A stretch of DNA of 64,000 bases from Bacillota bacterium (lineage in GTDB: Bacteria; Bacillota; Clostridia; Ch29), in contig JABVCK010000001.1 in NCBI GenBank assembly GCA_013540605.1, positions 186,001-250,000 on the forward strand. Reading direction: 5' to 3'. A program made the translations under genes and the position numbers. The notes under the pieces were generated by a model. That model was given only the letters and a program-made list of their open reading frames with translations, had not been told where the DNA came from and did not search any database. Below, piece by piece: positions 8,616-54,764 of the stretch (position 1 is the first letter of the stretch; every line of letters begins with the position of its first letter).

Positions 8616-9068
8616 GTGGTGGATATTGGAGAACTGCTTGACAAGCTTGAGGAAACAATTAACCAGGGCAGATCCGTTCCCTTTTCCGATAAAGTCCTGG
8701 TTGACGGGGAAAAAGTGTTAGGAGTGATTGATACTATAAGAGACATTTTACCTGAAGAGATAAAACAGGCAAACTGGATCAAGGAGGAAAGAAACAGGAT
8801 ACTGATAGATGCCCAAAAGGAAGCCGAACTAATGCTTAAAGAGACCGAGGAACATATAAAGCGCTTGGTCGAAGAGAATGAAATAACAAAAAGGGCGTAT
8901 CGGCAGGCAGAGGAAATAATCGAGAACGCAAAGAAAAATGCAAGGGAGATCAGGCTGGGGACAAAGGAATACGCCGATAACATGCTGGAGGAACTGGAAA
9001 AACAGTTGAGGGAATACATAGAGCTTATAGAAAAAAACAGGGAAGAAATAAGGAATTTGAAAAGCTAG
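8616..9068 (+). CDS. Coiled-coil protein of unknown function between coaD and ylbJ
   Basis: 150 residues from GTG 8616 (AAAGGAGGGG at 8601-8610). Residues 1-40 look globular; from about 45 to the end the protein is a charged, Glu/Lys-rich helix of the kind that gives false hits to ATP synthase subunit b or DivIVA. No membrane segment or nucleotide-binding motif is visible. Proteins of this type sit next to coaD in several Clostridia as far as I recall, but I know no function. The heptamer array at 9067 starts in its TAG stop codon. Confidence 0.7.
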   Translation: MVDIGELLDKLEETINQGRSVPFSDKVLVDGEKVLGVIDTIRDILPEEIKQANWIKEERNRILIDAQKEAELMLKETEEHIKRLVEENEITKRAYRQAEEIIENAKKNAREIRLGTKEYADNMLEELEKQLREYIELIEKNREEIRNLKS

Positions 9069-9264
9069 ATATTAGTTCGTAGTTTGTAGAATGCAGATTA
9101 CAGATTATGGATCACAGATTGCAGGTGCAATAATTCAGTTTCTAGTTCTCAGTTTTCAGCCTCCAGGGTTAGTCTTACAGGCTTTTTCCCTTAAGCTTTA
9201 CCCTATGCACTGGTCACTGGCAACTGATAACTGATAACTGATAACTGATAACTGGCAACTGATA
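9067..9264. repeat. Heptanucleotide mosaic array, copy 1
   Basis: Fills the gap between two genes. It starts in the stop codon of the coiled-coil gene with 7-base units (AGTTCGT, AGATTAC, AGATTGC types), becomes degenerate around 9130-9200, then ends with eight in-phase units of the NNNACTG form (9206-9261), including four ATAACTG in a row. The order of unit types is the same as at 34188-34285. The array runs up to the end of ylbJ on the other strand. Confidence 0.8.
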
Positions 9265-10548
9265 TTACCTTCGTCTCAAAAAATATAATAGCTTAATCAG
9301 CAGGAGAAACGCCAAGATGCCTAAAACGGTTGTTAGCAGTATCCCTGACGAGGCCAAAAGGGTTTTCGAAAAGGTAAGGGCAGGCAGTGTGGAAGGACCA
9401 GGAAGATAAACCTGCTGAACCGGTTCGGCAATAAATAATTTATAAAAAACAGTTGAAAGAATTAGAGCGAAGAACCCATGCAGCAGTTTTGTCACCAGGT
9501 ATACTAAGGGGCTCAAGTCTGTCTTGCTGATAAAGCTTATCGATTGGGCGTGTATTGAAAAACCGCTCCATCCAATAATAAAGCTGACGGACAGCACTTT
9601 GTAGATTAAAGGAACGGATGCCAGCGAAGCAATCATTCTACTGCCGGTAGTAATCTCTAAAATCCCGCTTAGGATAGGTTTTACAATGGCAGCAGGCAGG
9701 GCTGCGCGCATTAACAGCGAAGAAACAGGCTCTGACAGGAAATCTAGAAGCCCGGTTATGGTGCACACTTCGATCACAACAGAGAAAATTATTATGAAGC
9801 CTCCAACCATCAACAGAGTGTCTATGCTCTCGCGAACCGCATCTCCGAGCAGGACACCAACAGGTCTCCCGTCTTCGAGTCTCCTGCGATACATAGCGCC
9901 GATACTATCCTTCAAACTGGGAAATCTGTAGCTGGTATTTCTGCAATATCCATAATCCTTCAAGATACGGCTGAAGATTATACCAAGTATTATTGATGCC
10001 GTATAGTGTGAAACAGCTATAATAATTCCTGCTTTTGAGTTTCCCAGCATACCCACTGCTACAGCTCCAATCATGAAAAGCGGACCCGACGTGCTGCAAA
10101 AAGCGAGCATACGCTGCCCTTCGACCCGGGTGCATTTGTTTTGCTGTCTTAAGCGGCACGTAAGTTTTACGCCGACCGGATAGCCGGAAGTCATGCTCAT
10201 GATGAGCGCGAAGGAAGACAGCCCCGGTGTCCTGAAAACAGGACGCATAAAAGGCTCAAGCATAGTCCCCATAAGGTCTATGATACCGAGCCCGATCATC
10301 AGTTCCGCCCCTACGAAGAAGGGTAAGAGCGCCGGCAATACCACATTAAACCAGGTGTCAACCCCCTCTACGGCGGCCCTGTAACAGGCTTCGGGATAAG
10401 CTATCAGGCTGAGAACAAAAAAAGTTACCGCTGAGGATGTAAAGAGTAGGAAGACCCTGCCCTTTGCTGTGGAAGTAAATATGCTCCTTCCGGTTTTTAT
10501 ATACACAAATACGAACAAAAGGAATACTATTAGAGATATAGCAAACAT
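9265..10548 (-). CDS. ylbJ: Sporulation integral membrane protein YlbJ
   Basis: 427 residues with about eight to ten hydrophobic segments. Characteristic features are the LPALLPFFVGAELMIGLG stretch, the SMTSGYPVGVKL motif of the nucleoside-recognition (Gate) fold, and a second Gate half later in the protein. YlbJ is made under sigma-E in the mother cell and is needed for normal spore formation in Bacillus; its transport substrate is not settled. On the minus strand the start has GAAGGAG upstream. It runs against the flanking plus-strand genes, so it is likely transcribed alone from about 10560. Confidence 0.9.
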   Translation of the reverse strand: MFAISLIVFLLFVFVYIKTGRSIFTSTAKGRVFLLFTSSAVTFFVLSLIAYPEACYRAAVEGVDTWFNVVLPALLPFFVGAELMIGLGIIDLMGTMLEPFMRPVFRTPGLSSFALIMSMTSGYPVGVKLTCRLRQQNKCTRVEGQRMLAFCSTSGPLFMIGAVAVGMLGNSKAGIIIAVSHYTASIILGIIFSRILKDYGYCRNTSYRFPSLKDSIGAMYRRRLEDGRPVGVLLGDAVRESIDTLLMVGGFIIIFSVVIEVCTITGLLDFLSEPVSSLLMRAALPAAIVKPILSGILEITTGSRMIASLASVPLIYKVLSVSFIIGWSGFSIHAQSISFISKTDLSPLVYLVTKLLHGFFALILSTVFYKLFIAEPVQQVYLPGPSTLPALTFSKTLLASSGILLTTVLGILAFLLLIKLLYFLRRR

Positions 10549-14650: not shown

Positions 14651-14827
14651 ATGGCCCTACCAAAAAGGAAAATATCAAAATCCAGAAGAAATATGAGAAA
14701 AGCCCAGTGGAAGCTTGAAAGACCAAGCCTGGCTGAATGCCCGCAGTGTCATGAACCAAAGATGCCGCACAGGGTTTGCAAGTCATGTGGTTATTACAAG
14801 GGAAAAGAAGTGGTAAATGTTGAATAA
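14651..14827 (+). CDS. rpmF: 50S ribosomal protein L32
   Basis: 58 residues: [19 protein letters not shown], then CPQC (30-33) and CKSC (43-46), a four-cysteine zinc-binding L32. GAGGAGGTG is the ribosome binding site. The yceD-rpmF-plsX linkage is widespread; here fapR sits between rpmF and plsX. The heptamer array at 14827 starts in the last base of its TAA stop, followed by a terminator. Confidence 0.97.
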
Positions 14828-14884
14828 GGTACTAGGTGCTAGGTACTAGGTGCGAGATTATAGTTCGTAGTTGGTAGTTCGTAG
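14827..14884. repeat. Heptanucleotide mosaic array, copy 2
   Basis: Eight 7-base units in perfect phase: AGGTACT, AGGTGCT, AGGTACT, AGGTGCG, AGATTAT, AGTTCGT, AGTTGGT, AGTTCGT, then AG. Begins at the last base of the rpmF stop and ends just before the rpmF terminator. The same unit types recur at the other four arrays. Confidence 0.85.
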
Positions 14885-14887
14885 AAT

Positions 14888-14913
14888 AAGGTGCGAAATT
14901 TGCGCCTTTTTTT
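14888..14913 (+). terminator. Intrinsic terminator after rpmF
   Basis: AAGGTGC (14888-14894) pairs with GCGCCTT (14902-14908, one G-T pair) and a run of T residues follows. It separates rpmF from the FapR-controlled fatty acid genes. Confidence 0.85.
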
Positions 14914-20578: not shown

Positions 20579-20654
20579 CTAAGAAATGAGGCAAATCGAA
20601 AGATTTGTTTATATATACGGGTATATATTAACTATAGAAGAGGAGGTTACCCGG

Positions 20655-21893
20655 TTGAAGCGAAGAGTAGTTGTTACTGGACTGGGGGCGGTAACTCCGG
20701 TAGGGATCGGGAAGGACGAGTTTTGGACAGCACTCAAAGAGGGAAAGTCCGGTGTGGACAGTATAACAAAATTTGATACGGAAGGTTTTGACACAAAGAT
20801 TGCAGCAGAGGTAAAAGGGTTCAACCCGGGAGATTTCATGGACAAAAAGGAAGCCAGGAGGATGGATACCTTTACCCAGTACGCAATTGCAGCGGCCAGG
20901 CTGGCAGTGGAAGACGGGAATATTGACCTCAAGAGTGTAGAAGGTGATAGATTAGGTGTGATTTTAGGGTCGGGAATCGGTGGGATAGAAACACTGGAAA
21001 ACCAGTTCCGGACAATGTATGATAAAGGGCCCTCAAGGATCAGCCCGTTTTTTATTCCGATGATGATTTCCAATATGGCTGCAGGGCAGGTATCGATAGC
21101 CTTTGGAGCAAGGGGTCCGAATGAAACAATAGTAACCGCCTGTGCATCCGGTACAAATGCCATAGGGGACGCATTTAAGGTAATCCAGCGTGGAGACGCG
21201 GACATGGTTATAACGGGTGGAACCGAGGCAGCGGTAACGCCCATGGCGGTTGGAGGGTTCTGCTCAATGAAGGCGCTGTCAACCAGAAACGATGACCCTA
21301 AGGCTGCAAGCCGGCCCTTTGACAAGGGAAGGGACGGATTCGTCCTGGGTGAGGGCGCAGGGATCATTATATTGGAAGAACTGGGGCATGCGCTGAAAAG
21401 AGGGGCAAAGGTTTACGCAGAGATTATAGGATATGGGATGAGTGCCGATGCCTATCATATAACCGCACCGGCTCCGGGCGGCGCGGGAGCGGCTGCCGCT
21501 ATGAAAATGGCGATCGACGACGGGGGCATTGAGCTTGAACAGGTGGATTATATAAACGCCCATGGCACTTCTACCGAATACAATGATAAGTTCGAGACCG
21601 AGGCAATAAAACAGGTGTTCGGCAGCCATGCGTATAAAATGATTGTAAGCTCAACCAAATCCGTTACAGGCCACCTGCTTGGCGCCGCGGGTGCTATAGA
21701 AGCCATAGCATCGGTAATGGCAATACATGATGGGTTCATACCACCTACGATAAACTATGAAACACCGGACCCGGAGTGCGACCTTAATTATATGCCGAAC
21801 AGAGGTATGCGCAAAGGGATTAAGGTTGCTATGTCGAATTCCCTTGGGTTTGGCGGCCACAACGCAAGCTTGTGCTTCAGGGAGATTGTTTAA
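20655..21893 (+). CDS. fabF: 3-oxoacyl-ACP synthase II
   Basis: 412 residues. Extends the growing acyl chain on ACP. The thiolase-fold Cys in [11 protein letters not shown] (about residue 160), the two His in [11 protein letters not shown] and [12 protein letters not shown], and the [10 protein letters not shown] end are all present. TTG 20655 follows AGGAGGTTAC; the frame is open to 20586 without a ribosome site. It is the last gene of the fab cluster; no fabZ or acetyl-CoA carboxylase genes follow. Confidence 0.96.
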
Positions 21894-21912: not shown

Positions 21913-22045
21913 GATCAGTGACCAGTGGCCAGTGATCAGTGGCTAGAGAATAGTTATCAGTTGGCAGTTCCCAGTTCCCACTAGCACCTGCGATCTGCGA
22001 TCTGCCGACTGCGATCTATATTCTAGCACCTAGCACCTGGCACCT
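21913..22045. repeat. Heptanucleotide mosaic array, copy 3
   Basis: Nineteen 7-base units without a break in phase. The units go from GATCAGT/GACCAGT/GGCCAGT through TATCAGT, TGGCAGT and TCCCAGT to AGCACCT, GCGATCT (three), and AGCACCT again. They are the reverse complements of units in copies 1, 2 and 4. Starts 20 bases after fabF and runs up to a GGAATGTCCCC repeat word. Confidence 0.85.
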
Positions 22046-22050
22046 GTGAA

Positions 22051-22061
22051 GGAATGTCCCC
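22051..22061 (+). repeat. GGAATGTCCCC repeat word, copy 3
   Basis: Reverse complement of the GGGGACATTCC arm of the repeat at 1488, followed by TTTTGATT. The same GGAATNTCCCC plus TTTTGATT string occurs at 24002-24020 upstream of smc. Confidence 0.5.
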
Positions 22062-22194: not shown

Positions 22195-22914
22195 ATGTTG
22201 GTTGTGAATACAAAGCGTAACGGACACACCGATTTTTCAGAGCTTGAAGAGCTGATAGGGTACAGCTTTAGAGATAAAAAGCTTCTACGCATCGCATTGA
22301 CCCACAGCTCCTTTGCCAATGAGCACGGCGGCTCTATCGAGGAATACAATGAAAGGCTCGAATTCCTTGGAGATGCGGTTTTAGAGCTTGTTACCAGCGA
22401 ATACCTGTACACACACCTTCCGGAGCAGCCGGAGGGGTGTCTCACGCGGACCAGGGCGATAATAGTAAGAGGACAAGCCCTTGCCGCATACGCGAATAGA
22501 ATAAACCTGAACAGGTTTCTGCTGCTGGGAAAGGGAGAGGAAAGCTCAGGCGGGAGGAAGAGGGCTTCCATTCTAGCTAATACCTTTGAGGCGGTCATAG
22601 GTGCGATATACCTGGATGGTGGTCTGGAAAAGGCTAAACGGTTTATTGAGAGATTTGTGATCAAGACGGCCGGCAATCTGGAAAAGCAGAATTTCCTATA
22701 CGACTGCAAGACGGCGCTGCAGGAAGAAATCCAGTCGACCACAGGGGAAACGATCGAATACAGGATACTGGAAGAGTTAGGTCCCGACCATGACAAAACA
22801 TTTCATGTGCAGGTGGTAATAGGGAACAGGCCCATGGGGGAGGGTACAGGAAAGAGCAAGAAGGAAGCGGAACAAAAAGCTGCCAGGCAAGCCCTGGGAA
22901 AACTGGTGGAATGA
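22195..22914 (+). CDS. rnc: Ribonuclease III
   Basis: 239 residues. Cuts double-stranded RNA, including rRNA precursors. The nuclease signature ERLEFLGDAVLEL, the later LANTFEAVIGAIYLD with the catalytic acidic residues, and a C-terminal double-stranded RNA-binding domain ending GKSKKEAEQKAARQAL are intact. The ATG 22195 sits right against GGGAAGG; GTG 22204 is better spaced and could be the real start. The radical SAM gene starts inside its stop codon. The rnc-smc-ftsY linkage is conserved in Bacillota. Confidence 0.95.
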   Translation: MLVVNTKRNGHTDFSELEELIGYSFRDKKLLRIALTHSSFANEHGGSIEEYNERLEFLGDAVLELVTSEYLYTHLPEQPEGCLTRTRAIIVRGQALAAYANRINLNRFLLLGKGEESSGGRKRASILANTFEAVIGAIYLDGGLEKAKRFIERFVIKTAGNLEKQNFLYDCKTALQEEIQSTTGETIEYRILEELGPDHDKTFHVQVVIGNRPMGEGTGKSKKEAEQKAARQALGKLVE

Positions 22915-32797: not shown

Positions 32798-33319
32798 TTG
32801 GAAGGTAAAAAAAAGGGAGAAATACGGGAATGGGTTGAATCAATATTCATCGCCATTATTATTGCTATAGCAATAAAGGCTTTCATTTTTGAGACAATAC
32901 TTGTTGAAGGCTATTCAATGCTGCCCACTTTACATGACAGGGACAGGTTAGCGGTGAATAAAATTGGATATCATATAGGTGAGCCTGCCAGGGGTGATAT
33001 CGTTGTGTTTAAATACCCTGGCGACCCTAAGCTTATTTTTATTAAAAGAGTAATCGGTATAGAGGGGGACAGGGTTGAGATTAAGAATCACCGGGTAATC
33101 GTGAATGGAGAGGAACTTAAGGAGGATTATATATTGGAGATGACCCTTGGTGAGTACCCGGAAACTGTCGTGCCGAAGGATAGGGTGTTTGTTTTAGGTG
33201 ATAACAGAAATGACAGCAGGGACAGCAGGTATCCCGATGTTGGCTTCATTTCTGTTAAAAATATTAGGGGTAAGGCCTTTGCACGGATATGGCCTCTTCC
33301 AATGGAGATAATTGATTAA
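32798..33319 (+). CDS. lepB: Type I signal peptidase
   Basis: 173 residues. One N-terminal membrane segment (about 15-32), then the extracytoplasmic catalytic domain with Ser40 (GYSMLPTL) and Lys83 (FIKRVIG), and VLGDNRNDSRDSR near the end. Cleaves signal peptides of exported proteins, including substrates delivered by FtsY/Ffh encoded nearby. TTG 32798 follows GGAGGTAGA. rbgA starts 16 bases after its stop. Confidence 0.95.
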   Translation: MEGKKKGEIREWVESIFIAIIIAIAIKAFIFETILVEGYSMLPTLHDRDRLAVNKIGYHIGEPARGDIVVFKYPGDPKLIFIKRVIGIEGDRVEIKNHRVIVNGEELKEDYILEMTLGEYPETVVPKDRVFVLGDNRNDSRDSRYPDVGFISVKNIRGKAFARIWPLPMEIID

Positions 33320-33335
33320 GCAAGGGATGGTTAGA

Positions 33336-34196
33336 ATGGAAATTCAATGGTATCCAGGCCACATGGCGAAAACACTAAGGATTATCAAAGAGCACCTTAA
33401 GCTGGTGGAAATTGTCTTGGAGATGCTTGATGCAAGAATTCCGCTCAGCAGCAGCAATCCGGAGCTAGGGAAGATGATTCCCCCGGGCAAAAGGCTAATA
33501 GCCATGAATAAAGCTGACCTGGCTGATCCGGAAAAAACAAAGGTCTGGATAGAGCATTACAGGAGGCTAGGCCTTTCCAGTGTAAGCCTGAATTCTATTG
33601 ATGAGCGAGGAATTGATGGCCTGCTCAAAGAGATTAGAGTTATGGGCGATGCACAAAGGCAAAAATGGGAAGCCAGGGGAAGAATTCAAAAAACCATCCG
33701 TGTGATGATCGTTGGGATTCCAAACGTGGGTAAGTCATCACTTATTAACCGGCTGTCAAGAAAAAGCTCTGCAAAGACCGGTAATAAACCCGGGGTGACA
33801 AAGAGCAAACAGTGGATCAAGGTGGATAAGGACATAATGCTTCTGGATACGCCCGGAATCCTATGGCCGAAATTTGAGGACAGAGAAACCGGCATTAACC
33901 TGGCGATTACCGGGGCAATAAAGGAAGAGATCATTGATATGGAGGAAATCGCGGTAAAGATGATTGAAAAAATTCTCCGGATAGACGAACAAAGACTGAC
34001 CGGCTTATACGGTATAGAAAAAACATGGGAGGATGCGACGGATTTATTCAAGCAAATTGGGATTAAACGCGGATGTTTGTTGGCCGGAGGAAGAGTAGAC
34101 ACCCTAAGGGCCGCCAGAATAGTACTGGAAGATTACAGGTTGGGAAGGATGGGACGTATAACCCTCGAGACGCCGGAGAGCATCGGCAGTTCTTAG
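33336..34196 (+). CDS. rbgA: Ribosome biogenesis GTPase RbgA (YlqF)
   Basis: About 286 residues. Circularly permuted GTPase: the G4 motif AMNKADL comes before G1 GIPNVGKSS and G3 DTPG. WYPGHMAKTL at the N-terminus is the family signature. RbgA works in late 50S assembly in Bacillota. Several in-frame starts exist upstream (33312, 33327); MEIQWYPGHM at 33336 fits best. Its last codons and TAG stop are part of the heptamer array at 34188. Confidence 0.94.
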   Translation: MEIQWYPGHMAKTLRIIKEHLKLVEIVLEMLDARIPLSSSNPELGKMIPPGKRLIAMNKADLADPEKTKVWIEHYRRLGLSSVSLNSIDERGIDGLLKEIRVMGDAQRQKWEARGRIQKTIRVMIVGIPNVGKSSLINRLSRKSSAKTGNKPGVTKSKQWIKVDKDIMLLDTPGILWPKFEDRETGINLAITGAIKEEIIDMEEIAVKMIEKILRIDEQRLTGLYGIEKTWEDATDLFKQIGIKRGCLLAGGRVDTLRAARIVLEDYRLGRMGRITLETPESIGSS

Positions 34197-34285
34197 TTGG
34201 TAGTTGGTAGTTCGTAGATCACAGATCACAGATTGCAGGTACTAGGTGTTAGTCACTGGCCACTGGTAACTGATAACTGATAGCT
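34188..34285. repeat. Heptanucleotide mosaic array, copy 4
   Basis: Fourteen 7-base units in unbroken phase: AGTTCTT, AGTTGGT (two), AGTTCGT, AGATCAC (two), AGATTGC, AGGTACT, AGGTGTT, AGTCACT, GGCCACT, GGTAACT, GATAACT, GATAGCT. Begins 6 bases before the rbgA stop codon. The order of unit types is the same as copy 1 and the reverse complement of copy 5. Confidence 0.9.
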
Positions 34286-34318
34286 ATACTCTGGCCAACT
34301 GAACAAGGGGGGGGAAGA

Positions 34319-35089
34319 GTGAGGGACAAGAGCGTCATAGAAATAGAAAAGGAGCTTACTACCTATACGATGGAAAAGCTGGACGAGATTATTCCTGCGC
34401 TATTGTGCGATGAGAGAAAATCCGTGAGGGATCTCGGCAAAAGGATGCTAAGAAGGGTCAAGAGTCAAAGGGAAGAATACGAAAGAATAAATAGGATGAA
34501 AGAGATTGAAGCCGGACTGCGGAAAAAGGGCTTTACGGTAATAGCGGGAATAGATGAAGCCGGGAGAGGACCCCTGTGCGGACCGGTGGTCGCTGCGGCT
34601 GTTATCCTGCCTGAAGGTTTTTTTGTGCCGGGAGTGAATGATTCAAAGAAGTTGAGTCCCCAAAGAAGGGAAGAACTATTTCTGGAGATAACCGAGAAGT
34701 GTCTGGACTATGCTGTGGGTATGGTTGACAGCAGAGAGATAGACAGGATCAATATACTGAACGCCACGTACAAGGCGGTGGATATTGCGATAGGGCGTCT
34801 TAATTTGACCCCGCAGTGCTTGGTTCTGGACGCAATCAAGCTTCCGGGCTGCAGTATGTATCAGGAAAGCGTGATAAAGGGCGACCAGAAATGTTTATCG
34901 GTGGCTGCAGCCAGTATCATCGCGAAGGTTGAAAGGGATAGGTATATGGCAAAGGTCCACGGGCTGTATCCTGAGTATAACTTTGAATCTAACAAAGGAT
35001 ATGGAACGAAGGAGCATATCGACGCTATTTTAAAGCACGGCCCCTGCTCAGAACACCGCATTACCTTTTTAAGGAATATTCCCTTCTGA
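34319..35089 (+). CDS. rnhB: Ribonuclease HII
   Basis: 256 residues. Removes ribonucleotides and RNA from RNA-DNA hybrids. The catalytic IDEAGRGPLCGP (Asp79, Glu80), NDSKKLS, a later LDAI Asp and KVERD are present. An N-terminal helical extension of about 70 residues, as in Bacillus RnhB, precedes the core. GTG 34319 after a G-rich run is the likely start. The next gene lies 23 bases downstream. Confidence 0.95.
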   Translation: MRDKSVIEIEKELTTYTMEKLDEIIPALLCDERKSVRDLGKRMLRRVKSQREEYERINRMKEIEAGLRKKGFTVIAGIDEAGRGPLCGPVVAAAVILPEGFFVPGVNDSKKLSPQRREELFLEITEKCLDYAVGMVDSREIDRINILNATYKAVDIAIGRLNLTPQCLVLDAIKLPGCSMYQESVIKGDQKCLSVAAASIIAKVERDRYMAKVHGLYPEYNFESNKGYGTKEHIDAILKHGPCSEHRITFLRNIPF

Positions 35090-43839: not shown

Positions 43840-45234
43840 ATGACGGAATTGACTCCTGCGGAAATCGTCAAAGAACTGGATAAATATATAATCGGTCAGG
43901 ATAAGGCGAAAAAATCGGTCGCAGTCGCCTTAAGGAACAGATATAGAAGGAGACAGCTTCCAGAAGACCTCCAGGAGGAAATAAAGCCTAAAAACATATT
44001 GATGATAGGCCCTACCGGAGTTGGGAAAACGGAAATAGCGAGAAGACTGGCAAAGCTGGTGGATGCACCCTTTATAAAGGTAGAGGCAACGAAGTTTACA
44101 GAGGTCGGGTATGTTGGTCGTGATGTGGATTCAATGGTAAGGGATCTTGTGGAAACATCCATAAGGATGGTAAAGAACAACAAGCTCATTGAGGTCCAGA
44201 ATAAGGCAGAGGTCATGGCTGAAGACAGGCTGGTTGAAATATTGGTGCCGCTGCCAAAAAAGGAGAGCCCGTACAGGAATCCGCTTGAAGCACTGTTTGG
44301 CGGGGGTAAATTCAATGAAGAAGAGGAAAAAAACAGGGAAGCTTTTAAAGATATTGAAGAAGAGAGAAGAATAATCCGGTCCAAGCTCAAGATAGGAGAT
44401 CTGGAGGACAAGGTCATAGAAATAGAGGTGGAAGACAAGGGAGGCACCGCCGTAGAATTATTCACGGGCATGGGCACGGAAGAAATGAATATAAACTTTC
44501 AAGATTTGCTTGGAGGAATATTCCCGGGCAAGAAAAAAAAGAGAAAGGTTACGGTCCGGGAGGCCAGAAAGATGCTTATTCAAGAAGAGGCAAACAAGCT
44601 AATCGATATGGATAGCGTAACAACGGAGGCTATTAACAAAGCCGAACAAAGCGGCATCATATTCCTGGATGAAATTGACAAAATTGCAGGAAGCAGTTAC
44701 AAGGTAGGGCCGGATGTGTCAAGGGAAGGAGTTCAAAGGGATATATTACCTCTCGTAGAAGGAAGTACGGTTATGACAAAGTACGGTCCGGTAAAAACTG
44801 ACCACATTCTGTTTATAGCGGCCGGTGCTTTTCATATAGCAAAACCTTCGGACCTTATACCCGAACTGCAGGGACGTTTCCCAATACGGGTAGAATTAAG
44901 CAGCCTGACCAAAGATGACTTCCGGAGGATTCTAACTCAGCCCAAAAATGCAATAATAAAACAATACACCGCATTATTGGAGACTGAAGGAATTAAGATA
45001 GTGGTTGAGGATGATGCTGTAGAAAAGCTTGCAGAGATAGCATACTCGGTAAACCAGACCGACGAGAATATTGGCGCCAGAAGACTTCATACCATTGTGG
45101 AAAAGCTTTTTGAGGAAATCTCCTATACAGCTTCGGATGTATCAAAGGAAGGATTTGTGATTGACGGGAACTATATAGAGCAGCAGCTTAAGGACTTGAT
45201 AAAGGAAAAGGATATAGACAAATTTATTATCTAG
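43840..45234 (+). CDS. hslU: ATP-dependent protease ATPase subunit HslU (ClpY)
   Basis: 464 residues. AAA+ unfoldase that feeds Hsl[21 protein letters not shown], Walker [10 protein letters not shown] (about 57-65), then a charged insertion (I domain, about 130-230), Walker [11 protein letters not shown] and a C-terminal sensor-2 region with [16 protein letters not shown] precedes the ATG. Its TAG stop (45232-45234) is the first unit of a heptamer array. Confidence 0.97.
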
Positions 45235-45340
45235 TTGCCAGTTAACAGATGACAGTGATCAGTGACCAGTGGCTAGTGAACAGTGACTAGTACCTAGTAC
45301 CTGTAATCTGTGATCTGCGAACTACGAACTACGAACTAGT
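45231..45340. repeat. Heptanucleotide mosaic array, copy 5
   Basis: Fifteen 7-base units plus five bases with no phase slip: CTAGTTG, CCAGTTA, ACAGATG, ACAGTGA, TCAGTGA, CCAGTGG, CTAGTGA, ACAGTGA, CTAGTAC (two), CTGTAAT, CTGTGAT, CTGCGAA, CTACGAA (two), CTAGT. Its unit types run in the reverse-complement order of copy 4. Starts one base before the hslU stop and ends 7 bases before the codY ribosome binding site. Confidence 0.9.
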
Positions 45341-45355
45341 ATAGGGAGGAAAACA

Positions 45356-46141
45356 ATGGCCAGTTCACTATTAGTCAAGATGAGAAAAATAAATAAAATA
45401 CTGCATTGGCCCTCCAACCAACAGATCGATTTTTCTGAATTGTGCAAGGTGCTGGGCAAGATCTTGGATGCCAATGTATACGTACTTGGGCTTAAGGGTA
45501 ATCTTATAGGTTTCAGTCTAGCCGAGGGTTACAATTGCACAATTATGGAGGAGGAAGTGCTTGAACAGAAGAATTTTCCCAAGCACTTCAACCAGGACTT
45601 GATGGATATCGAAGAGACCGAAGTGACTTCCACCAACCATGTCGTCGGCTGCGTTTTTGACGACAGTATAAATTGTCCTTACGAGACAAGGTTTACTGTT
45701 ATAATACCGATAAACGGCGGAGGCGATAGGTTGGGCTCCCTGATATTAACGCGGTTTGACAGGGAGTTTGCAGAGGACGATGTGGTGCTGGGTGAACACA
45801 GTGCTACCGTTGTAGCGTTGGAAATACTGCATTCAAAGAGCCAGGAGATGGAAGAAGAGGCAAGAAAAAAGGCTGTGGTGCAGATGGCCATTGGCACTCT
45901 GTCGTATTCCGAGCTGGAGGCTATGGAGCATATATTTAGAGAACTGAATGGCAAGGAGGGGCTTCTGATTGCCAGCAAGATTGCCGATAAGGCTGGGATC
46001 ACCCGTTCGGTCATAGTAAATGCTTTAAGAAAATTTGAAAGCGCCGGAGTTATCGAATCCCGTTCTCTCGGCATGAAGGGTACTTTTATAAAAATACTCA
46101 ACGACAAACTGATCGATGAGCTGGAAAAATACAGAAGTTAA
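45356..46141 (+). CDS. codY: GTP- and branched-chain amino acid-sensing repressor CodY
   Basis: 261 residues, full length. The N-terminal GAF domain (about 1-155) binds isoleucine, leucine or valine; the C-terminal winged helix (ASKIADKAGITRSVIVNALRKFESAGV, about 203-229 in total) binds DNA. CodY shuts off stationary-phase and nutrient-scavenging genes when amino acids and GTP are high. AGGGAGGAAAAC precedes the ATG. Lying between hslVU and the flagellar operon is the conserved Bacillota location. Confidence 0.96.
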   Translation: MASSLLVKMRKINKILHWPSNQQIDFSELCKVLGKILDANVYVLGLKGNLIGFSLAEGYNCTIMEEEVLEQKNFPKHFNQDLMDIEETEVTSTNHVVGCVFDDSINCPYETRFTVIIPINGGGDRLGSLILTRFDREFAEDDVVLGEHSATVVALEILHSKSQEMEEEARKKAVVQMAIGTLSYSELEAMEHIFRELNGKEGLLIASKIADKAGITRSVIVNALRKFESAGVIESRSLGMKGTFIKILNDKLIDELEKYRS

Positions 46142-46217: not shown

Positions 46218-46264
46218 GGGGACATTCCGCGGCAAGGAATGCCCGCGAACAGCGGTGTGTCCCC
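46218..46264. repeat. GGGGACA dispersed repeat, copy 5
   Basis: GGGGACA (46218-46224) and TGTCCCC (46258-46264) arms enclose TTCCGCGGCAAGGAATG and a second GC-rich part ending AGCGGTG. The left half is the same as the repeat at 1486-1511. It lies directly upstream of the riboswitch, in the flagellar leader. Confidence 0.7.
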
Positions 46265-53480: not shown

Positions 53481-54764
53481 TTGGACGTAAGGGAACTTTT
53501 GGTTCCAACAACCAAGGAAGCCGTTCTGAACAGTAAAACCAGCCCAAAGAACGATGCAAAAAAAGCCACGGACGGGTCGCCCTTCAGCAGCTTATTTGCT
53601 GATATCATGCAGAAAAACAATTCCGCATGTCCGAAGGATGAAACCATGGGCGAACAAGCCGCAAAAGCTTCAAGGCTGGCGTTTGCACCGGCACTGCTGG
53701 CAGGTTTAAACCTGATGGACTTGGCAAGCTCTGAAATGCCCGGAGACCACCCGGTTTCTGAAGAGGACAAAGCTCTTGACGGAGCATCTGTCATGATGGC
53801 AAATAGGAGTATCCAGATAAGCAAGGAGCAAACCACCCGGCAAGAATTGTTTAAGGCAACTCCTCGCAGTGACAGGGATGAAGCGATAGCACTGGAGGAA
53901 GGCGCGGGAACAATTCCGGTAGTAGAAACGGATGCAGTGCCAGCAATAGTGGCAAGGCAAAAGGGCGAGCCTCTTGAGATGCAGGACGGTTTTACTGTAG
54001 AAGGCCGCAGGAGCATTGTACAAAGCAAACGGGTTTTCAACGACAGCAATAACACTGAAGAGGAGGTTATAAAGAATACCCCTGAAGAGGAGGTTATAAA
54101 GAATACCCCTGAAGGAAAAGTCAGCAAGGATGCCGTAGAAACGGATTTAGCCGATAGAATGAAAGCTGTATATCAAGAGAACGAAAATAAACCTCCGGGG
54201 AAGGAAGAGCGGATAACCGATGCTACAAAGACAAGGGGTGAAATCAAAAATAGTATTGAATTTAACCCGGCAAGTAAACCTGAAGTAATAATAGAAACAG
54301 GAGATAACAAAACAAAAGCCTTGCAAAAGAATGTCATAGACACGGAGAAAACTGAATTCACAGTCGAGGTTGTTGAAAAGGTTAAGGTGATGGTAAATTC
54401 AAAAAGGTCGGAAGTAAGCGTTCAGCTTAAACCCGAAAGCCTTGGCAAGATGTCCTTCAAACTTGAGGTTGTGAACGGAGTTTTAAACGGGAGGATAACC
54501 GTTCACAACAACCAGGCGCGGGAAGTGCTCCAGGCCAATCTCAACCAGTTGAGGGACAACCTCGAACAAAGCGGTATTCCGGTGAGCAAACTGACGGTAA
54601 ACATCGGAAGCCACGGTGAATTCAGGCAGCATCAGTACAGCCAGGAAAACAGGCATGACCAGGATGGCTATACCGGCAGATGGGTTGTACCGGGTTATAG
54701 GGGAGAAGAAGCCGAAGAGACCTTCAGATGGAACGACGTAGGAACAGTCGAATATCTGGCATAG
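53481..54764 (+). CDS. fliK: Flagellar hook-length control protein FliK
   Basis: 427 residues. A long hydrophilic linker (about 1-290) and a conserved C-terminal domain (about 295-395) with VQLKPESLGKMSFKLEVVNGVLNGR and NLNQLRDNLEQSGIPV, typical of FliK. It measures hook length and switches export specificity through FlhB. The linker carries a 27-base perfect duplication at 54057-54110. TTG 53481 follows AAAGGAGGTG. Confidence 0.92.
   Translation: MDVRELLVPTTKEAVLNSKTSPKNDAKKATDGSPFSSLFADIMQKNNSACPKDETMGEQAAKASRLAFAPALLAGLNLMDLASSEMPGDHPVSEEDKALDGASVMMANRSIQISKEQTTRQELFKATPRSDRDEAIALEEGAGTIPVVETDAVPAIVARQKGEPLEMQDGFTVEGRRSIVQSKRVFNDSNNTEEEVIKNTPEEEVIKNTPEGKVSKDAVETDLADRMKAVYQENENKPPGKEERITDATKTRGEIKNSIEFNPASKPEVIIETGDNKTKALQKNVIDTEKTEFTVEVVEKVKVMVNSKRSEVSVQLKPESLGKMSFKLEVVNGVLNGRITVHNNQAREVLQANLNQLRDNLEQSGIPVSKLTVNIGSHGEFRQHQYSQENRHDQDGYTGRWVVPGYRGEEAEETFRWNDVGTVEYLA
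54057..54110 (+). repeat. 27-base perfect tandem duplication in fliK
   Basis: Two identical 27-base units (54057-54083 and 54084-54110) encode EEVIKNTPE twice in the FliK linker. In frame, so the protein is simply lengthened by nine residues. Confidence 0.95.

Follow-up and report, generated by a model that had tools for sequence, protein, structure and literature searches.

We find that the heptanucleotide arrays of this Bacillota genome are probably dispersed, noncoding, and nonautonomous hairpin-like repeats, gained in this lineage by copying and then reshaped seven bases at a time through slippage or unequal exchange. A full copy, ~100 to 330 bp in length, comprises an arm of YAGNNNN words and one of reverse-complement words, separated by a center that is either an AGGTRCTAG apex or an imperfect hairpin core. 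New copies would have arisen in gene gaps, often right after a stop codon and ahead of the next ribosome-binding site; after insertion, their arms would lengthen, shorten, and diversify via slippage or unequal exchange, giving rise to mosaics that are ordered yet variable. The pattern needs no coding or regulatory role; some copies do supply stop codons, and some probably form hairpins in mRNA. Bacterial gene gaps have for decades been known to contain heptamer arrays, mostly regarded as putative binding sites or as products of slippage; the present genome shows that such arrays can take the form of two-arm elements that are dispersed and follow a grammar. The initial annotation of this DNA, which had proposed a dispersed family shaped by a copied mosaic together with slippage, was largely right.

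The window (the whole stretch of DNA analyzed, 64 kb) contains six period-7 clusters that score 27 or more matches out of 42 (the best scoring 36), and all six fall inside the five arrays that the initial annotation had located. Order-2 Markov copies of the window gave 0.1 clusters on average, with a maximum score of 27, and the other periods from 4 to 13 (7 excluded) gave 0 to 2 clusters in the window; period 14, the double of 7, is set aside here. All five arrays are present, and no other period-7 signal in the window comes close to theirs. A tandem repeat with a 27-bp unit (2.5 copies, 95% match) also lies within an ORF at 54048-54114. The arrays and their neighboring genes are as follows.

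9066..9261, unstranded: full element with a type 2 center (nhmmer with the center-2 model, E = 1.1e-44), made up of a plus arm of YAG heptamers (~9066-9170), a center (~9171-9198), and a minus arm (~9199-9261)
14827..14888, plus strand: partial element with a single arm, AGGTRCT words and then TAGTTCG, TAGTTGG, and TAGTTCG
20586..21893, plus strand: fabF (beta-ketoacyl synthase), upstream of the next element
21916..22046, unstranded: full two-arm element in the fabF/rnc gap, with a REP-like GGAATGTCCCC downstream at 22051
22195..22914, plus strand: rnc (RNase III), downstream of 21916..22046
33312..34196, plus strand: ylqF/rbgA-like ribosome-binding GTPase (Pfam MMR_HSR1), upstream of the next element
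34187..34293, unstranded: full two-arm element of the AGGTACTAG apex type in the ylqF/rnhB gap
34319..35089, plus strand: rnhB (RNase HII; Pfam RNase_HII), downstream of 34187..34293
43840..45234, plus strand: hslU-like AAA ATPase (Pfam AAA_2), presumptively named hslU by synteny with codY, upstream of the next element
45232..45338, unstranded: full two-arm element in the hslU/codY gap, with the apex type of 34187-34293 in inverted orientation
45356..46141, plus strand: codY (Pfam CodY and HTH_CodY), downstream of 45232..45338

The element at 9066..9261 occupies the whole gap between convergent ORFs (8616-9068 on the plus strand and 9265-10548 on the minus strand). Two others provide the stop codon of the upstream gene: that of ylqF is the TAG of TAGTTGG, the second word of the element at 34187..34293, and that of hslU is the TAG of TAGTTGC, the first word of the element at 45232..45338. 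The unit types that had been named (AGTTCGT, AGATCAC, AGGTACT, etc.) are correct, as is the report that the array at 45231 is the one at 34188 in reverse-complement order, its minus strand running parallel to the latter. What had been missed is the hairpin layout: rather than one ordered chain, an array comprises two converging arms, so that the change of unit type along the array at 34188 (from AGTTCGT to GATAACT), previously read as mosaic stepping, marks the point where one arm gives way to its partner. Likewise, 9067-9264 is not a single chain but an arm, a nonheptamer center of ~30 to 45 bp, and an opposite arm, and the array at 14827-14884, although present, is only a partial one-arm copy. 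The exact phase ascribed to the arrays breaks at the centers and at some arm junctions.

The same layout, a YAGNNNN heptamer arm followed by a center and an arm of reverse-complement words that together form a long imperfect hairpin, recurs across the host genome (3.35 Mb in 36 contigs). The array at 34188, used as a BLAST query, recovered 67 matches in its own genome; AGTTNGTAGTTNGT recovered 212 there, versus 0 for a reversed control pattern, and the core motif CCCTGACGTCTGTCATCTG recovered 44 with up to 2 mismatches. We parsed 71 elements totaling 10.6 kb, a census drawn from searches and retrieved genome stretches, mainly with AGTTNGT-type queries, and hence a biased sample. With a 7-base phase at many intergenic loci, they belong to the broad class of intergenic heptanucleotide repeats. 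Among the 60 two-arm elements, the order is plus then minus (words pointing inward) in 57, the remaining 3 are composites, and none is minus then plus.

All-against-all alignment showed that whole copies at unlinked loci match edge to edge in either orientation (for instance, at 86% over 140 bp and at 81% over 182 bp) and that the similarity does not extend past the element edges. Two subfamilies of centers were seen in these alignments, and a third group, including the arrays at 34188 and 45231, has a AGGTRCTAGNCACT apex. This end-to-end homology shows that whole copies are duplicated from site to site. Word order is also shared: 967 element pairs have ordered three-word strings in common, versus 101 ± 19 when words were shuffled within arms, and 12 have five-word strings in common, versus 0.4. 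Transitions from one word class to another have a direction (AGATGA to AGACGT, 10:0; AGTTCG to AGTTCA, 8:0; AGTTCG to AGATCA, 12:3), whereas words of one class alternate symmetrically (AGTTCG/AGTTGG, 54:48), which argues for a class grammar with short copied modules rather than a long fixed template. The unit order that had been predicted to be shared genome-wide thus exceeds the shuffles, but it holds at the level of classes and short modules, seldom beyond 5 to 6 units.

Adjacent identical words number 153, versus 91 ± 8 in shuffles; word-to-word distance is 1.95 at lag 1 and climbs to about 2.6 with separation; and the most common gap length in pairwise alignments is 7 (153 gaps; lengths 6 and 8 account for 75 and 20), a lesser rise being seen at 13 to 14. 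As neighboring words are the most alike and the gaps peak at 7, slippage acts too, and copying between loci and slippage are both at work. Independent local slippage from chance seeds under a shared sequence bias, with no copying between loci, would account for the likeness of neighboring words, for the gap peak, and for the patchiness of YAGTT arrays over the phylum (28 of 398 genomes). However, nonrepetitive centers are common to many unlinked copies, homology runs from edge to edge, and multiword ordered strings are shared above shuffles, so we consider such an origin highly improbable; pure slippage was rejected on account of the shared centers and the edge-to-edge copies. The proposal that the family spread "not only by local slippage" is thereby upheld, with slippage clearly acting as well.

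The elements lie between codirectional genes in 54 of the 66 resolved contexts, at a median of 14.5 bp from the upstream stop and 37.5 bp from the next start, and both strands fold better than shuffles (mean fold z-score across both strands, −1.96). Such placement and folding would suit a selected regulatory RNA or protein-binding array, comparable to the translational or mRNA-stability role proposed for the TAACTGA direct repeats of marine Beggiatoaceae (MacGregor 2015, PMC4679880). Against this, the A arm lies without preference on the same strand as the genes (25) or on the opposite one (29), orthologous junctions of relatives lack the element (see below), and cmscan at four loci recovered no Rfam match to the element, the single match being an L21 leader away from it at locus L219. 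Covariation in the element core is also slight by RNAalifold, with two-sided change in 1 of 15 pairs and a consensus energy of only −4.2 kcal/mol. Gene-sparing insertion accounts for the placement equally well, and we regard a regulatory array as very unlikely. The arms of an element pair no better with each other than with swapped ones when the A arm comes first (z = +1.1) and weakly better when the B arm does (z = −2.6). With the core covariation weak and own arms not clearly the best fit, a conserved or selected RNA structure is not supported. A likeness to integron attC sites (GTTAGGC in the core) was dropped, as no matching partner site was found by eye.

That the elements were gained in this lineage is suggested by comparison of the three junctions that carry them here (hslU-codY, 124 bp; ylqF-rnhB, 125 bp; fabF-rnc, 304 bp) with those of family relatives belonging to other genera (G001 to G005) and of more distant genomes. 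All three junctions are heptamer free in G001 and G003, as are both of the two found in each of G002, G004, and G005, and the more distant genomes that retain these junctions are likewise heptamer free. The hslU-codY and ylqF-rnhB gaps of the family relatives are short (23 to 77 bp); the fabF-rnc gap is long in some of them too (up to 246 bp), yet heptamer free. Because the orthologous sites are free of heptamers, the simplest reading by parsimony is that the element was gained at all three junctions in this lineage. Sharp-edged homologous copies at unlinked sites and orthologous sites lacking the element, the hallmarks of dispersed mobile repeats in general, are both seen here. The claim of a genome-wide family spread by mosaic copying is supported, with ~70 elements, both orientations, shared order, edge-to-edge copies, and heptamer-free orthologous sites; a single mosaic template is not, since there is no fixed one and there are at least three center types.

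Such elements might be moved by an HUH transposase of the Y1 (RAYT) type that acts on hairpins in single-stranded DNA, or they might be copied between loci by recombination or template switching. There is no signal of target site duplication (mean shared edge word, 3.39, versus 3.45 when permuted), and the ends are ragged. A MITE of a DDE transposon, with fixed terminal inverted repeats and a target site duplication, was therefore rejected, the heptamer ends being ragged and the edge words at chance level. The missing duplication does fit HUH enzymes, and in a specific version of that mechanism, the heptamer hairpin would travel as cargo between palindromes tagged with GGGGAC, which a RAYT-type HUH Y1 transposase would recognize. 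Several copies indeed have GGGGACACACC at one end and GGAATGTCCCC at the opposite end, the element lying between these in one orientation or the other; long Y1 proteins (~206 to 274 aa) are encoded in all six family genomes; and GGGGAC/GTCCCC motifs flank RAYT genes, those of G003 and G004 having the strict REP form. However, REP-like GGGGAC ends are found at just 11 (strict) to 17 of the 71 elements; G198 and G128, which are among the other Bacillota genomes richest in heptamers, are without a Y1_Tnp match; and G001 and G005 possess a Y1 gene without matching AGTT arrays. Across 45 Bacillota genomes, Y1_Tnp occurs in 12 of 15 that bear heptamers versus 18 of 30 others, with no clear link. We therefore consider the cargo mechanism unlikely, and RAYT as a general mover is not supported, since Y1 genes do not track the arrays over these 45 genomes. 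The host genome does encode a RAYT-type Y1 protein of 265 aa (locus L249, contig C15, 14500-19800), with GGGGAC upstream and GTCCCC downstream of the gene (GAACCGTCCCC). REP-like palindromes without heptamers (GGGGACATTCCGCGGCAAGGAATGTC and GGTGTGTCCCC) are found in the window at 1488-1600, 2342, and 46218-46264; these appear to be a distinct REP family with a probable link to the RAYT-type gene.

Cyanobacterial STRRs are described as intergenic tandem arrays of near-identical 7-nt units, without an ordered two-arm architecture. The initial annotation had mentioned heptamer repeats as known in cyanobacteria; similar intergenic ones have already been described beyond that group as well, in Beggiatoaceae and Bacteroidetes besides cyanobacteria (PMC4679880) and in Geobacter (PMC2700814). 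The TAACTGA repeats are the nearest described family (PMC4679880): like the present elements, they are intergenic, lie near gene ends, keep a 7-base phase with related heptamers mixed, and show lineage-specific sites, indel steps of 7 nt, and a patchy taxonomic range. The present elements differ in having two inward arms, a conserved center, and an ordered word repertoire; moreover, TAACTGA itself occurs here in 21 of the 71 elements and in tandem in just 4, so it is not dominant, and in place of a forward position directly upstream of start codons, we observed both strands (25 same, 29 opposite) and the median of 37.5 bp to the start. In Nostoc, heptanucleotide repeats with the motifs TDNGATT and NNTGAGT form stem P6b of the tRNA-Leu (UAA) intron (PMC4476775), which resembles our elements in having degenerate 7-nt words in both hairpin arms and seven-base length changes; those repeats lie within one group I intron, whereas the present ones are dispersed and intergenic. 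With REPINs and BIMEs (PMC3116915, PMC3733652), the elements share dispersed multicopy intergenic hairpins, a RAYT-type protein in the genome, and some GGGGAC-tagged ends, but they have heptamer arms, ragged ends, and no general Y1 link and are not bounded by paired tagged REP palindromes, the REP-like motif being found at the edges of 11 to 17 of the 71 elements. Elements of Geobacter metallireducens that carry four heptanucleotide repeats each are likewise dispersed and multicopy with heptanucleotide tandems inside (unit GGACCGG or MTYCTGA, in a fixed short number), and they are not reported to have an inverted-arm layout (PMC2700814). We found no description of an inward two-arm heptamer element or of a polarity rule in the open-licence literature, and the inward-polarity rule appears to be new to description.

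Searches with the 97-bp core (E ≤ 0.001) recovered only 2 of 291 genomes of the class, the host and G001, which is of the same family. The core copy in G001 (L217, contig C39; another genus) is 89% identical to the consensus query, while the proteins of the flanking genes are ~55 to 78% identical, which suggests recent transfer or strong conservation; G003 has a full copy that is more diverged. Carriage by phages or plasmids was rejected, as viral contigs had no match to two exact patterns and plasmids none to the core. The heptamer words range much farther than the core: an exact AGTT-type pattern recovered at least 85 stretches, and the matches listed come from Bacteroidota, Cyanobacteria, Planctomycetota, Acidobacteriota, Verrucomicrobiota, Chloroflexota, Gemmatimonadota, Pseudomonadota, Bacillota, a Thermodesulfovibrionales MAG, and one haloarchaeon (Natrialba sp. 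SSL1; an AGTTGG-type heptamer array at L150).

Close arm pairs in these outside loci point inward at about 18 loci in seven phyla versus 2 exceptions, in a biased sample, selected through an AGTT pattern and containing genomes related to one another, for which the binomial P of 0.0004 overstates independence. One of the exceptions is a neighboring pair in a Tychonema locus; a close outward pair (minus then plus) in a Gemmatimonadaceae bacterium (L176) also departs from the inward rule. Minus-then-plus pairs in some other Bacillota were discounted, being by inspection mostly double-counted words that contain both YAG and CTR (e.g., CTAGCAA and AGCTGAT). The arms in the outside phyla differ in sequence and have only the YAGT frame in common.

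The polarity rule is a simple testable regularity, and a mechanism joining polarity, the seven-base step, and dispersal would explain a common, neglected part of bacterial intergenic DNA. A possible origin of the polarity is directional end synthesis, whereby both 3′ ends at a break would gain YAGNNNN words, either copied off a template or added through repeated template switching, and would then be joined, leaving inward polarity. It would fit the 57-to-0 polarity in the host genome and that of the outside loci, where arms differ in sequence, given that hairpin pairing alone permits either polarity. The conserved centers, however, show that whole elements are copied, and the polarity could reflect plain common descent; we assign this origin of the present elements a minimal probability. 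That the inward YAGNNNN arms across phyla stem from one directional process (templated or telomere-like 3′-end synthesis followed by joining), and not from ordinary transposition or slippage, is very doubtful too. Two of the outside loci, in Ruminococcaceae and Oscillospiraceae MAGs (L169 and L173), have the same two-arm element with an identical center under different MAG names.
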